From assembly GCA_001872285.1 (NCBI GenBank), contig MNXU01000074.1:1-64000 (forward strand): a stretch of DNA of 64,000 nt. Reading direction: 5' to 3'. The stretch comes from Betaproteobacteria bacterium CG2_30_68_42 (lineage in GTDB: Bacteria > Pseudomonadota > Gammaproteobacteria > Burkholderiales > Rhodocyclaceae). The notes below the pieces were generated by a model. It ran no database searches. It was not told where the DNA came from and saw only the letters and a list, made by a program, of their open reading frames with translations. The position numbers and the translations under genes are program-made. This document shows positions 5,304 to 39,298 of this stretch, in pieces; the first letter of the stretch is position 1; each line of letters begins with the position of its first letter.

Positions 5304-6446
5304 ATGAATTCTGCGCCAGAGACCCTGCCTGCCGCCCTGATCCTGGCCGACGGCACCGTGTTTCGGGGCACCGGAATCGGAGCCGCCGGAATGCGGGTCG
5401 GGGAGGTGGTGTTCAACACCTCGATCACCGGCTATCAGGAGATCCTCGGCGATCCCTCGTATTGCCGCCAGATCGTCACGCTGACCTATCCGCACATCGG
5501 CAACACCGGGGTCAACGAGGAGGATCGCGAGTCGGCGGGCGTGTTCGCGGCCGGCCTGGTGGTGCGCGACTGCCCGGCGCTCGCTTCGAGCTGGCGCATG
5601 GAACGCACGCTGCCGGAATACCTGCGCGCCGAGGACGTGGTGGCGATCGCGGGCATCGACACCCGCAGGCTGACCCGCATCCTGCGCGAGAAGGGCGCAC
5701 AGAGCGGCTGCCTGGTGGCCGGGGAGATCGACGAGGAGCGCGCGCTGCGCGAGGCGCGGGCCTTCCCCGGACTCGCCGGCATGGATCTGGCGAAGGTGGT
5801 CAGCACAGCACGGCCCTACCAGTGGAGCGAGGGCGAGTGGCGCCGGGGCGAGGGCTTCCGGGCGCCGCCGGCGCCGCGCTTCCACGTCGTGGCCTATGAC
5901 TTCGGCATCAAGCGCAACATCCTGCGCATGCTCGCGGCCCGCGGCTGCCGGCTCACCGTGGTGCCCGCGACGACCGGCGCGAAGGAGGCGATGGCGCTCG
6001 CGCCCGACGGCATCTTCCTCTCGAACGGGCCCGGCGACCCCGAGCCCTGCGGCTACGCGGTGGAGGCGATCCGGGAACTGGTGGCGGGCGGCATCCCGAC
6101 CTTCGGCATCTGCCTCGGGCATCAGTTGCTCGCGCTCGCCTCGGGGGCGGGCACGGTCAAGATGAAGTTCGGCCACCACGGCGCCAACCATCCGGTCAAG
6201 GACCTGGACAGCGGCCGCGTACTCATCACCAGCCAGAACCACGGCTTCGCCGTGGATGCGCAGGGCCTGCCGGCGAACCTGAGAGTCACCCACGTGTCGC
6301 TCTTCGACGGCAGCCTGCAGGGCATCGCGCGCACCGATGCGCCGGCATTCTCCTTCCAGGGGCATCCCGAGGCGAGTCCCGGCCCGCACGACATGGCCTA
6401 CCTGTTCGAGCGCTTCGTGGGCCTGATGGAAGAGGCGAAGGCCTGA
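5304..6446 (+). CDS. carA: Carbamoyl-phosphate synthase small subunit
   Basis: Glutamine amidotransferase subunit that feeds ammonia to CarB for carbamoyl phosphate, used for arginine and pyrimidines. The 380-residue product has the N-terminal CPSase small domain ([20 protein letters not shown]) and a class I amidotransferase domain with nucleophile Cys in [15 protein letters not shown] and the His-Glu pair in [13 protein letters not shown]. An in-frame ATG at 5274 would add ten residues that look nothing like the family, so 5304 is preferred. carB follows after four bases. Confidence 0.95.
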
Positions 6447-6450
6447 AGCC

Positions 6451-9656
<3,206 letters not shown>

Positions 9657-35441: not shown

Positions 35442-35466
35442 GGCAACCGCCGCAATGGAGGAGCGG

Positions 35467-36696
35467 ATGCTGCTCGAGGGCGATGGATTGAAGCTGGCGC
35501 AAGCCTCCGGCGCGGAGGGCGCGGCGCGCAACTTCCAGGCCCTGCGCGTGCTCTCGGAGGTCGCGACCGGGCTCGCCGGCGAAGCGGACATCGAGGCGCT
35601 GCTCAAGCGCTTCCTCGGCACCATGATCCGGCTGGTCGGCGCCTCGGCCGGCGCGGTGCGCGTGCTGACCTCCGACGGCATGCACCTGCGGCTGGTGGGC
35701 GCCACGGGCCTGCCCGAGGACGTCGTCGAGCACGAGAAGCTGGTGAGTCTCGAGTGCAGCCTGTGCGGCAGCGCGGTGATGCACGACCGCGTCCATCACA
35801 TGGTGCCGGTGCGCTCCTGCGCGGAGCATACGGGCCTTGCCTTCTTCCAGCGCGACTGCCACGCGATGGTGGTCGTGCCGCTGATGTTCCGCGGCAGGGT
35901 GCATGGCACCTACAACCTGTATTTCAGCGAGCTGCGCGAAGTGCCCGAGGAGGTGAGCGTGGTCTTCCGCTCGATCGGCGAGCACCTCGGCGCCGCGCTG
36001 GAGAATGCGCGGCTCACGCGCGAGAACCTGCGCATCACGCTCATGAACGAGCGCCAGATGATGGCCAACGAGGTGCACGACTCGCTCGCGCAGACGCTCG
36101 CCTACATGAAGATGCGGCTCGCGCTGATGCAGGACGCGCTGCGCGCAAAAGAGCCCGAGCGCGCGCTCAAGTTCGCCGCGGACGCCAAGGGCGCACTCGA
36201 CGCGGCCTACGCCGGCCTGCGCGAGCTGCTCTCGCAGTTCCGCAACCGCATGGACCCGCTCGGACTGCTGCACGCGCTGGACGCGCTCGCCCGCGATTTC
36301 CTCGACCGCACCGGCATCGAGCTCGATTACGACAACCGGGTGAGCGACCTGAATCTCAGCGTCGAGGACGAGGCGCAGGTGTTCCACATCGTCCAGGAGG
36401 CGCTCGCCAACGTCGTGCGCCACGCCGGCGCCACCCGCGCCCGGCTCACGGTGGATCTGCGAGCGGGCCACTACGAGGTCACGGTGGAGGACAACGGCAA
36501 GGGATTCTTCGCGCTCGGCAATCCGCTCGGCAGCTTCGACGAACACCCCGGGTTGCGCCAGCACCTGGGCATCAGCATCATGCGCGAGCGCGCCGAGCGC
36601 ATCGGCGGGCGCATCGAACTGGCGAACCTCCGGAAAGGGGGCGCGCGCACGCGGCTCACCGTTCCGGTGCCGCAGATCGGAGCGAAGGCGCGATGA
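35467..36696 (+). CDS. Cytoplasmic GAF-domain histidine kinase, NarX-like output
   Basis: Sensor kinase of a two-component pair, 409 residues, with no membrane helix. A GAF domain (about 30-180) carries four cysteines, C97 and C100 (ECSLCG), C118 and C131, which could bind a metal cluster or act as redox sensor. HisKA_3 follows with phospho-acceptor His204 (NEVHDSLAQTL), then the HATPase_c domain (NVVRHA, DNGKGF, GISIMRERAERIGG). ATG 35467 is chosen because GGAGGAG lies right before it; ATG 35455 adds four residues. The signal is unknown. It overlaps the response regulator by four bases. Confidence 0.88.
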   Translation: MLLEGDGLKLAQASGAEGAARNFQALRVLSEVATGLAGEADIEALLKRFLGTMIRLVGASAGAVRVLTSDGMHLRLVGATGLPEDVVEHEKLVSLECSLCGSAVMHDRVHHMVPVRSCAEHTGLAFFQRDCHAMVVVPLMFRGRVHGTYNLYFSELREVPEEVSVVFRSIGEHLGAALENARLTRENLRITLMNERQMMANEVHDSLAQTLAYMKMRLALMQDALRAKEPERALKFAADAKGALDAAYAGLRELLSQFRNRMDPLGLLHALDALARDFLDRTGIELDYDNRVSDLNLSVEDEAQVFHIVQEALANVVRHAGATRARLTVDLRAGHYEVTVEDNGKGFFALGNPLGSFDEHPGLRQHLGISIMRERAERIGGRIELANLRKGGARTRLTVPVPQIGAKAR

Positions 36697-37361
36697 GCGA
36701 GCCGATCCAGGTCCTGCTGGCCGACGATCACACGCTCTTCCGCAAGGGTCTCGCAGAACTGCTGGAGCGCAGCGGCAGCATCCGCGTGGTGGGCATCAGC
36801 GGCAACGGGGACGATGCCCTGTGGCTGGTCGAGAATCGCAAGCCTGATGCCATCATCATCGATCTCAACATGCCGCCGCACGGCGGCCTCGGGCTGCTGC
36901 GGCGGCTGCGCGCCGACGGCTGGATGGGCCCGGCGCTGATCCTGACCGTGAGCGACGAGCAGGCCGATCTCGAAGCGGCGCTGCGGGCCGGCGCGCGCGG
37001 CTACCTACTCAAGGACATGGAGCCCGACGAGGTCGTCGACGCGGTGCGCCGCGCGTGCGCGGGCGAGATGGTGGTCGCGCCCGCGATGACGCTGAAGCTG
37101 CTGCGCACGCTGCAGGCCGGCGGCACCAGCGCGCCCAGGCCCGATCCGCTGCACAGCCTCACCGCGCGCGAGCGCGAGATCCTCCAGCACCTCGCGCAGG
37201 GCCTGTCGAACAAGGCGATCGCGCGCGAGCTCGCCATCAGCTATGACACGGTGAAGCTGCACGTGCGCCACATCCTGTCAAAGCTCAACTTCACCTCGCG
37301 CGTCGAGGCCGCCGTCTTTGCCGTGGAGCACGGCCGCAAGGACGGGAACCACACGCAGTGA
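36693..37361 (+). CDS. NarL/LuxR-family response regulator
   Basis: Output partner of the kinase just upstream, 222 residues. The receiver domain has the acidic pocket DD (11-12), phospho-acceptor Asp57 (IIIDLNMP), the conserved Thr/Ser and Lys106-type segment GYLLKDM. The C-terminal LuxR HTH (LTAREREILQHLAQGLSNK, then YDTVKLHVRHILSKL) binds DNA. Translationally coupled by ATGA overlap. The regulon cannot be told from the window; the neighbours nuo, DUF302 and the redox fusion gene point to respiration or redox. Confidence 0.9.
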   Translation: MSEPIQVLLADDHTLFRKGLAELLERSGSIRVVGISGNGDDALWLVENRKPDAIIIDLNMPPHGGLGLLRRLRADGWMGPALILTVSDEQADLEAALRAGARGYLLKDMEPDEVVDAVRRACAGEMVVAPAMTLKLLRTLQAGGTSAPRPDPLHSLTAREREILQHLAQGLSNKAIARELAISYDTVKLHVRHILSKLNFTSRVEAAVFAVEHGRKDGNHTQ

Positions 37362-37376
37362 GCGGCCCGCGGCCGC
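37362..37376. terminator. Short GC stem-loop between convergent genes
   Basis: GCGGCC-CGC-GGCCGC directly after the response regulator stop and ahead of the convergent DUF302 gene. The stem is short and no T-run follows, so it is a weak terminator candidate. Confidence 0.3.
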
Positions 37377-37385
37377 GTGCCCACC

Positions 37386-37775
37386 CTACAGCGCGGCCAT
37401 CACCCGGTCGAGCCGCTCGCGCACCTCGTGCGCGAGTGCGGCGATGCCGGGCCGGTCGACGAGTTTCAGGATCGCGATCGGATCCATGAACTCGACCCAC
37501 ACGCTGCCCGCCGCATCCTGCCGTACCAGCACGTTGCACGGCAGCAGCAGGCCGATGGAGGGCTCTGCGGCGATCGCGCGGCTGGCGAGCGAGGGATTGC
37601 AGGCGCCGAGGATGCGATAGGGCGGCATCGCGATGCCGAGCTTCTTCTTCAGCGTGGCCGAAGCGTCGATCTCGGTGAGCACGCCGAAGCCTTCCGCGGC
37701 GAGCGCTTCGGTGACCTTCGCCAGCGCCGCGTCGAAGGACAGCGCGACGGTCTTGCCGAATCCGTAGTTGCTCAT
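37386..37775 (-). CDS. DUF302 domain protein
   Basis: A 129-residue soluble protein with the DUF302 pattern: VALSFDAALAKVTEALAAEG, ASATLKKKLG, YRILGACNPSLASRAI and IGLLLPCNVLVRQD. The biochemical role of the family is not known; members are frequent near redox and sulfur genes. A good GGAG stands eight bases before the ATG. It lies 38 bases after the ferredoxin-reductase fusion gene on the same strand, so the two are probably one transcript. Confidence 0.85.
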   Translation of the reverse strand: MSNYGFGKTVALSFDAALAKVTEALAAEGFGVLTEIDASATLKKKLGIAMPPYRILGACNPSLASRAIAAEPSIGLLLPCNVLVRQDAAGSVWVEFMDPIAILKLVDRPGIAALAHEVRERLDRVMAAL

Positions 37776-37813
37776 GGGTTTCTCCAGGACGATGGGTCGA
37801 ACGGCCCGCAGGC

Positions 37814-39298
37814 TCACTCGCAGACCGTGCGCGCGAACTGCGTAGCCGGCAGGCCGCGCCCGCACAGCCGCCGCTGTACTTCGTCGAGGATGGGCTGCGG
37901 GCCGGCGGCATACACGTGGAGCGCCGCGAGTCCGGCGAAGTTCCCCTCGATCGCCCGGCAGAGCGCATCCGCGTTTTCCTGCGCAGAGCGGCCCGCCCCG
38001 TCGATCGGCAGGTAGAGGAAGTCGTCGAGCGCCTCGCTCCATGCGCGGCACAGGTTGCCGAGGTAGTGCCCGTCGGGCCGGGTGGCGAGCCGGACCAGGC
38101 AGATGCGCTCCGCATTTTCGAGCGCGAGCGCGTGTTCGACGAGGCTCTTCACCGGCGCGAATCCGGTGTCGCAGGCGATGAAGGCGAGCTGCCTGGCAGC
38201 CTCGTCGCGCAGCACGAAATCGCCGATCGGCCCGAACACCGTCACCGGGTCGTTGCGCCCGAGCACGCCCGCGAACAGGTGCTCGGCGAAGCTGGAAGAT
38301 GGGTCGCGCGCGATGTGGAAATGCAGGTTGCGGTCGTCGCAGGGGCAGCTCGCGATCGGGAATTCCTCGCTGCCCGCCGGGTGGAAGCCGAGCACGGCCG
38401 ACTGTCCGGCGAAGAAGCGCAGGCGGTTGCTGCGTGGGGTCTGCAGGTGAAGCAGCACGATGTCGGCGGAGGCGCGCTCGATCGCGCGCACCCGCGCGCT
38501 GATCGTCTGCTCCGGGATGTCCTGCGGGCCGAGCGCCTCGAGGGCCTCGAGCACGACGTCGGACACCGGCGCGTAGCTGCACGCCAGCGTGACGCCGGAG
38601 CGCTTCTCGGCTTCGCTCAGGACATAGTCGTGCGGGTGCATCCGGCGCACCTGGCCCGAGGCCACGCGGACCTTGCACAGGCCGCAGGTGCCGCTGCTGC
38701 ATCCGTAGTTGAGCGCGAGCCCGGCCTTCAGCGCCCCCTCCAGGAGGGTGTCCGCGCCCTGCACGAAATACTCGTGCCCGCTCGGCCGCAGCACGACATG
38801 GGAGGCCACGAGGCTCAGCATGTCGTCCATGATCTCGATCGCATTGGGGGATTCTCCTTCTCCGAGGATGACCGCGAGATGCCGGTCCAGCGTGTCCGCG
38901 AGTTCCCGCATCTGCGCGCGCAGCGCTCCCTCGCCGTCCCCGGCCAGCGCGCGGATGCGTTCGCCCAGGTCTACGACCAGCAGGTGGTATTTCTGCAGGT
39001 GCGCGCGGGTGTCGGCGAGCTCGCGCGCGTGCTCGAAAAGCCGCTCCGCGAGCAGCTCCTGACTGGGCAGGGTGCGTTCGCGCACGCGCTTGCCGAAGGC
39101 GCGTTCCTTGATCTCGGTCACCCGCTCGAAGGCGCCATCGACATCGAGCCTGGCGTCCGGATAGAGCCTCAGCAGCTCGTCGGCCTCGACCATGCCATCC
39201 ATCGAGGCGAGCTCGCCGCTGCGGATGCGCGCCTGGAGCGCGGCACGGGTCACGCCGACGAGGCGCGCGGCGCGCGAGAGGTTGAGTGCGTGCGGCAT
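37814..39298 (-). CDS. HTH-ferredoxin-FNR fusion oxidoreductase
   Basis: A 494-residue, three-part protein. Residues 1-50 look like a MerR/excisionase-type helix-turn-helix (LSRAARLVGVTRAALQARIR, then LYPDARL). Residues 55-165 are charged and probably coiled-coil. Residues 166-255 are a plant-type 2Fe-2S ferredoxin with Cys200, Cys205, Cys208 and Cys240. Residues 262-490 are a ferredoxin-NADP reductase-like FAD/NAD(P) module (CDTGFAPVKSLVEH, YAAGPQPILDEV). The ferredoxin-reductase half is like phenol or benzoate dioxygenase reductases; the HTH addition is unusual. Substrate unknown; it may couple NAD(P)H redox state to DNA binding or to a partner. Confidence 0.8.
   Translation of the reverse strand: MPHALNLSRAARLVGVTRAALQARIRSGELASMDGMVEADELLRLYPDARLDVDGAFERVTEIKERAFGKRVRERTLPSQELLAERLFEHARELADTRAHLQKYHLLVVDLGERIRALAGDGEGALRAQMRELADTLDRHLAVILGEGESPNAIEIMDDMLSLVASHVVLRPSGHEYFVQGADTLLEGALKAGLALNYGCSSGTCGLCKVRVASGQVRRMHPHDYVLSEAEKRSGVTLACSYAPVSDVVLEALEALGPQDIPEQTISARVRAIERASADIVLLHLQTPRSNRLRFFAGQSAVLGFHPAGSEEFPIASCPCDDRNLHFHIARDPSSSFAEHLFAGVLGRNDPVTVFGPIGDFVLRDEAARQLAFIACDTGFAPVKSLVEHALALENAERICLVRLATRPDGHYLGNLCRAWSEALDDFLYLPIDGAGRSAQENADALCRAIEGNFAGLAALHVYAAGPQPILDEVQRRLCGRGLPATQFARTVCE

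Follow-up and report, generated by a model that had tools for sequence, protein, structure and literature searches.

Why would a head of DNA-binding type be joined to a ferredoxin and a reductase fold? The question is raised by an open reading frame on the reverse strand of a 64,000-nucleotide stretch from Betaproteobacteria bacterium CG2_30_68_42 (the window), which begins with an ATG at 39298, stops at 37814 and encodes 494 amino acids. The sequence-only reading had seen in its product a MerR/excisionase-type segment joined to a ferredoxin and a ferredoxin-NAD(P) reductase (FNR), and Pfam matches, AlphaFold2 models and full-length orthologues confirm that the fusion is real. From the N-terminus, it comprises a predicted winged helix-turn-helix (HTH) of MerR/BldC/Xis type (residues 3–48; 39155–39292), long helices forming a probable coiled coil (residues 55–144; 38867–39136; modeled helices 56–76, 80–121, and 125–144, of low confidence in the full model), a plant-type [2Fe-2S] ferredoxin with C200, C205, C208, and C240 (residues 166–252; 38543–38803), and an FNR-fold module with an altered FAD site (residues 262–492; 37823–38515), all on the reverse strand. 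Within the last of these, C318-P319-C320 (38339–38347, reverse strand) adjoins the place of a lost RxYS/RxFS motif. Pfam placed Fer2 at residues 172–243 (E 1.3e-12) and NAD_binding_1, below threshold, at 373–475, and FAD_binding_6 was absent from the Pfam results for this protein; the nearest NCBIfam models were BenC-like and far under their cut-offs. The whole-protein AlphaFold2 model (15 rows; mean pLDDT 78.8) shows a winged HTH, long helices, and a ferredoxin plus FNR fold, and its FNR-fold matches were carbazole dioxygenase ferredoxin reductase, GcoB, T4moF, and BenC, in agreement with the profile matches.

By predicted fold, the head is a MerR/BldC/Xis-type winged HTH and a putative DNA-binding domain. 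AlphaFold2 built the N-terminus as a beta-HTH-beta-helix (strand 4–6, helices 7–14 and 18–27, strand 36–38, helix 39–45) with block pLDDT of 79–89 over residues 11–50, bearing out the earlier proposal, and a model of the N-terminal 161 residues alone (mean pLDDT 74.5) agreed with the full model on the HTH at 4–45 and the helices at 55–144. The best solved-structure match of the N-terminal model in VIA-align was BldC (6ama; Z 7.5, 47 residues, rmsd 1.6), followed by phage Xis (4j2n; Z 7.3 over 47 residues) and RdfS (Z 5.8), middling values for a predicted model, given that Z below 8 can reflect a common arrangement. Foldseek matches were mostly MerR-like (Xis 4j2n, BldC 6ama, RacA 5i44, RdfS 8dgl, SoxR, CueR, and CadR), with E-values all at least 0.07 and some unrelated rows among them; the helical part matched many unrelated helical proteins. 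It is because the HTH-type matches are consistent among themselves that we take the head for an HTH. Profile searches gave a divided answer: HTH_17 was matched at E ≤ 0.05 by 7 of 10 members (best 0.0011), with a top score of 21.5 bits (L106) under the curated cut-off of 27 bits, while the window protein was not among the seven and gave only a weak HTH_8 match (residues 6–26, E 0.1). Across 88 HTH sequences R18 (94%), Q22 (97%), and G35 (100%) are fixed, the pattern that recognition of a single kind of site would predict. In contrast to the basic wings of HTH_17 proteins, this wing carries an acidic residue before its Gly ([DE]34-G35); the fold matches of the head also include CbpM, a MerR-like HTH used in protein binding.

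A chance N-terminal extension is ruled out by conservation in many genera. A protein search of the window's own genome and 100 relatives found the full-length fusion in 15 of 101 genomes, the other 14 copies having 45–55% identity and an N-terminal segment that aligns from residue 1–5 onward; one further genome, G010, has a close ferredoxin-FNR and the accompanying gene run without the HTH, both in this search and on re-search. A scan of genome contigs gave 15 loci, including nine further full-length fusions (L033–L041), two cut or shortened copies (L042 and L047), three ferredoxin-FNR genes without a fused HTH (L044–L046), and L043 (Sulfurisoma sediminicola), a duplicate of the G046 record; L042, L044–L047, and L043 were left out of the fusion alignment. 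L046 comes from a genome that appears to be G283, where the HTH is a gene of its own. L047 shows at about 5944–7080 an apparent in-frame loss of some 105 residues between HTH and ferredoxin, either an assembly error or a real deletion.

Beyond the close relatives, a profile of the HTH and coiled-coil region matched 68 of 369 genomes of the window's class (taken to be Gammaproteobacteria as GTDB defines it), or 65 once the weak matches in G192, G365, and G396 were dropped before counting. This search scored up to 10 candidates per genome; when all candidates were scored in 28 dsrA-bearing, HTH-negative genomes (19 from the class sample), 27 had no match and the remaining one gave a 32-residue HTH match at E 0.006, which suggests that few copies were missed. 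The 65 genomes hold 66 HTH copies, of which 34 are fused, 8 are separate but adjoining (within 52 bp of, or overlapping, the ferredoxin-FNR frame), and 24 lie in retrieved stretches that contain no ferredoxin-FNR and that in some cases run out at a contig end. Since the HTH occurs fused, beside a ferredoxin-FNR gene, or alone, the two halves go together when both are present. In a maximum-likelihood tree of 88 sequences, from which L162 was left out, 57 fused rows and six of the eight adjacent pairs group together with 97/97 support and 23 stand-alone rows fall outside; the fused label requires two changes, compared with 25.9 when labels are shuffled. The best ferredoxin-FNR of the 24 stand-alone-HTH genomes carries Cys-Pro-Cys in 14 (13 SCPC, one NCPC), keeps just the first of the two Cys in one (G333), and belongs to another kind in nine; in four of the 14 (G115, G142, G188, and G283) the Cys-Pro-Cys ferredoxin-FNR lies 12.7–15.4 kb from dsrA. 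G364 carries a fused copy together with a separate HTH and ferredoxin-FNR pair (C4 and C111; L150 and L151).

The reductase half has changed more than the sequence-only reading allowed when it spoke of a usual electron-transfer module with its own NAD(P)H-to-2Fe-2S chain. We aligned 70 family members (69 loci) with 16 paralogues. The ferredoxin ligands are intact in all 70 members, with spacing C-x4-C-x2-C-x31-C. In the FNR family RxYS binds FAD and sits at the flavin, and the complete R-x-F/Y-S motif is present in 16/16 paralogues and 0/70 members (Arg alone in 7, Ser alone in 15). The Cys-x-Cys of A-S-C-P-C shows the reverse pattern, with 70/70 members against 0/16 paralogues, which have A/P/Q and H at the two Cys positions; the intervening Pro is found in 69 of 70, and the G333 copy, outside the 70, reads C-P-T and lacks the second Cys. 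At position 335, which we take to be the second FAD contact, Gly occurs in 1/70 members (mostly Asp or Asn instead) and in 16/16 paralogues, in a column that gaps make less sure. Alignment to the BenC profile shows the same replacement of the FAD motif. The NAD loop is partly kept, with G379 and F380 in 67/70 and TGFA complete in 37/70; the residue before TGFA, Gly in the G-T-G-x-A-P loop, is D or E in 55/70. Further conserved positions are C417 (63/70), R418 (68/70), and W420 (70/70, shared with the paralogues). Profile score was tried as a classifier and rejected: members (272–564 bits) and RxFS paralogues (203–288 bits) overlap, and Cys-Pro-Cys members were therefore told apart by the motif itself. 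With the FAD motif gone from every member and Cys-x-Cys in all of them, an NADH-FAD-2Fe-2S electron chain in the fusion protein appears doubtful.

What sets fusion-bearing genomes apart is dissimilatory sulfite reductase. dsrA (TIGR02064) is present in 23 of the 101 genomes, 21 of them above cut-off, with the fragmented genes of G001 and G074 counted as present. It occurs in 14/15 fusion-bearing genomes, the exception being G025, compared with 9/86 of those without the fusion (Fisher p = 2e-10), and within the window's family in 10/11 compared with 6/50 (p = 9e-7); these p-values, like that for the class below, treat genomes as independent, which they are not, a problem that testing within the family reduces without solving. 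In the class sample, dsrA was found in 118/369 genomes (E at most 1e-40; 112 above cut-off), including 59/65 of those with the HTH (p = 4e-28); three of the six HTH-bearing genomes without it are 72–81% complete and three are 95–100% complete. Genomes reached through the contig loci had dsrA in 13/14 cases (11 above cut-off), one of these genomes looking the same as G283. The HTH/fusion family thus occurs with dsrA more often than expected and is Dsr-associated. The association is one-sided, in that 59/118 dsrA-bearing class genomes have no HTH.

As a control we counted soxB, a marker of thiosulfate oxidation, which is present in 46/101 genomes and in 14/15 fusion-bearing ones (p = 9e-5). Among soxB-positive genomes the fusion is present in 13/20 with dsrA and 1/26 without (p = 9e-6); because it follows dsrA there, the fusion is tied more closely to Dsr than to sulfur oxidation in general. 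In the window's own genome the genes near dsrA (L164) include dsrB, DsrF, DsrH, DsrK, and a DsrC-family gene, each above cut-off, and the dsrEFH-type genes beside dsrAB mark this Dsr system as of the oxidative type. An NAD(P)-binding flavoprotein nearby was taken for DsrL.

The gene neighborhood of the fusion had been read as a two-component system, a DUF302 gene, and complex I, and domain matches find all three present. The DUF302 gene (37386–37775, reverse strand; Pfam E 8.7e-28) lies directly downstream of the fusion across a 38-bp gap. On the forward strand, and convergent with it, are a GAF-HisKA_3 sensor kinase (35455–36696), which is NarQ/NarX-like at scores below those models' cut-offs, and a LuxR/NarL-type response regulator with Response_reg and GerE domains (36696–37361). 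The complex-I-type membrane subunit matches Proton_antipo_M. Complex I as functional context was rejected, a comparison of gene clusters having shown no such cluster in common with the other loci; the informative context is the dsr gene set instead. L044 (4666–8885) repeats the arrangement of the window at 35455–39298: its ferredoxin-FNR gene, here without HTH, converges on genes for a LuxR-type regulator and a GAF-HisKA_3 kinase, and a sirohaem synthase gene lies on its other side.

Around the 14 fusion genes of relatives, nine stretches contain part of a shared same-strand gene set and five contain none of it. Strand and order suggest that these sets are operons. The recurring genes are Sfum_1244, a small YIYR protein, and a Cys-bearing family of about 150 amino acids (8/14 each), an S24-like protein (7), MoxR AAA, DUF2201 VWA, and an uncharacterised third gene (4 each), and DUF302 (1); the last is the copy in the gene run of G019 (L055; 64% identity), with none in the stretches of the other 13. 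MoxR AAA and DUF2201 VWA genes also adjoin the ferredoxin-FNR of L046. A scan of these shared same-strand genes found no oxygenase. The genome from which the window comes has the set divided: contig C81 groups the S24-like, YIYR, Cys-bearing, and Sfum_1244 genes at a distance of about 22 kb from dsrA, and the fusion and DUF302 are in the window. Sfum_1244 (NF045620/DUF6866; for example G000:C81:36141-37112) accompanies dsrA in 15/15 relatives and 73/81 class genomes that have it, and by coordinates 38 of those 73 have it no more than 25 kb from dsrA on one contig; from this distribution it looks like an unrecognised Dsr accessory gene, for which a search of the open-access literature found no paper. 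The S24-like genes (for example L056, 12214–12597) encode a LexA/UmuD-type S24 domain without an HTH, in which most members keep GDSM at the Ser region and single members have GDAM or GESM; FRQL or similar stands at what is presumably the position of the LexA catalytic Lys, and the proteins may therefore be inactive proteases. A TauD-family dioxygenase, a CMD-Rieske fusion, a DsrC-family gene, and an unassigned gene occur together at L042 (3590–6073), and this neighborhood recurs in L033, L036, and L047 near the genes downstream of the fusion.

Over-represented tetramer dyads were sought as candidate operators in the 250 bp preceding each of 85 HTH genes, and none rose above the null (top score 8.6, compared with 8.3 in shuffled sequence). 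Upstream of dsrA a palindrome, TACYY-N4/5-RRGTA, stands out in 14 relatives, with instances such as TACCCCTTTCGGGTA at about 110–310 bp from the gene (L164–L177 and L208–L215). We considered it as the operator of the fusion protein and rejected it as probably not its site, since it is present both with and without the HTH protein: in a table that holds the best palindrome per promoter, so that other spacings may hide some, exact N4/N5 copies occur in 15/22 genomes of the window's order, namely 10/14 (9/13 with the HTH, plus G010) compared with 5/8 dsrA-bearing relatives without it. Among 16 deeper HTH-bearing promoters no exact copy was found. The window's own genome has the exact N5 palindrome once, on contig C48, and the control pattern 10 times. 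The palindrome resembles NarL heptamer pairs, and a NarL-type two-component pair adjoins the fusion gene in the window.

We tentatively favor reading the fusion as a dimeric DNA-binding regulator tied to Dsr sulfur oxidation and sensing redox or sulfur state, so that the earlier interpretation is partly supported: its redox-controlled regulator is kept as a best guess, with the protein's own NAD(P)H-to-2Fe-2S chain in doubt. The winged HTH would bind DNA, the long helices would pair two copies, and the [2Fe-2S] cluster, the Cys-Pro-Cys pair in the flavin-site region, or both would read the redox or reactive-sulfur state, with a consequent change in DNA affinity or bending; the genes controlled would most likely be the linked accessory genes, the dsr genes, or both. 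We prefer this reading because the head has the fold of a DNA binder, with R18 and Q22 fixed, occurs alone, and follows one pathway, and because the tail keeps its cluster ligands but not the FAD signature. Our commitment to it is limited by the empty operator search, the acidic wing, the CbpM precedent, the G010 gene run that lacks the HTH, the half of dsrA-bearing class genomes that do without it, the loci L044–L046, and the link to soxB. A more specific version, that the FNR module gave up FAD and that Cys-Pro-Cys in the flavin-site region, acting as a redox or persulfide sensor, together with the cluster controls the MerR-like head as a dedicated transcription switch for Dsr sulfur oxidation, fused in one clade and made of separate chains in others, strikes us as rather unlikely in that full form.

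Close behind the regulator ranks a reading, possible though less probable, in which the protein serves the Dsr machinery as a redox or cofactor-maturation factor, its HTH-coil docking onto other proteins instead of binding DNA; it would pass electrons or sulfur to a target, for example in the assembly or repair of sulfite reductase with MoxR-DUF2201. MoxR-VWA pairs load metals or cofactors, and such a pair adjoins the fusion in four of the 14 other fusion-bearing relatives as well as the ferredoxin-FNR of L046. The intact 2Fe-2S ligands, the four stand-alone-HTH genomes with a Cys-Pro-Cys ferredoxin-FNR near dsrA, and the use of a MerR-like HTH in a protein complex by CbpM point the same way, but the HTH is free-standing in 24/66 copies, in nine of whose genomes the best ferredoxin-FNR is not of the Cys-Pro-Cys kind, and loss of the FAD motif weakens the case for electron transfer from NAD(P)H. 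That loss, together with the invariant Cys pair, also argues against an ordinary NAD(P)H-dependent BenC/T4moF-type reductase that serves an oxygenase and whose N-terminal extension plays no part in regulation. The fold and best profiles (BenC, T4moF, GcoB, and carbazole dioxygenase reductase), the largely kept G379/F380 of the NAD loop, though not the whole TGFA, and a TauD-family dioxygenase near some loci (L042, with the same cluster in six loci) speak for such an enzyme, which we nonetheless consider improbable given that the shared genes include no oxygenase and that the HTH is conserved with a distribution of its own. Equally improbable in our view is a nucleoid- or complex-associated HTH of BldC/RacA type that brings a ferredoxin-type protein to DNA with no classical switch: the fold matches BldC and RacA, the helical region is long, and no operator emerged, but the strong tie to one energy pathway suggests a pathway-specific role.

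Among known systems, SoxR of the MerR family resembles the fusion in combining a MerR-type HTH, a helical stretch, and a [2Fe-2S] center in one chain. SoxR holds its cluster in a short C-terminal Cys motif and has neither ferredoxin nor FNR, whereas the fusion carries a full plant-type ferredoxin with four Cys, followed by an FNR-fold module, and the SoxR-type motif was not found in it; with cluster ligands of the ferredoxin kind, it is distinct from SoxR, although it may act in a similar way. BenC, T4moF, GcoB, and carbazole dioxygenase reductase share the order of ferredoxin and then FNR fold; the fusion differs from them in its added HTH-coil, in Cys-x-Cys for the FAD motif, and in a dsr rather than an oxygenase context. 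BldC, phage Xis, and the RdfS excisionase share the fold of residues 2–48 and are small stand-alone proteins, whereas the HTH here comes with a redox module, in one chain or as a pair.

In its proposed logic the fusion also resembles sHdrR and the ArsR-type SoxR, described in PMC10451225 and PMC12423496 as sulfane-sulfur-responsive repressors of sulfur oxidation, which likewise sense reactive sulfur as regulators of a sulfur-oxidation pathway; these are ArsR-type repressors of an alphaproteobacterium that differ from it in fold and pathway. In the relevant passages, PMC3368242 and PMC5944118 go no further than to cite studies of how dsr genes are regulated in Allochromatium, and PMC13293266 deals with DsrEFH type II and contains neither "ferredoxin" nor "helix-turn-helix." Our search of the open-access literature, judged partly by title, found no paper on the fusion or its gene context among those listed; in the literature searched, neither the architecture nor the altered FNR site nor the association with dsr has a precedent, and the logic resembles that of SoxR.

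According to PMC10451225, the sensing of inorganic sulfur compounds by sulfur oxidisers is poorly understood. How sulfur oxidation is switched on is largely open, and this family offers a concrete candidate with a phyletic signature, accompanied by linked uncharacterised genes (Sfum_1244/DUF6866, the S24-like protein, and two small families). If the regulatory reading is true, a reductase fold, an FNR with a conserved Cys-x-Cys in its flavin-site region, would have been reused as a sensor.
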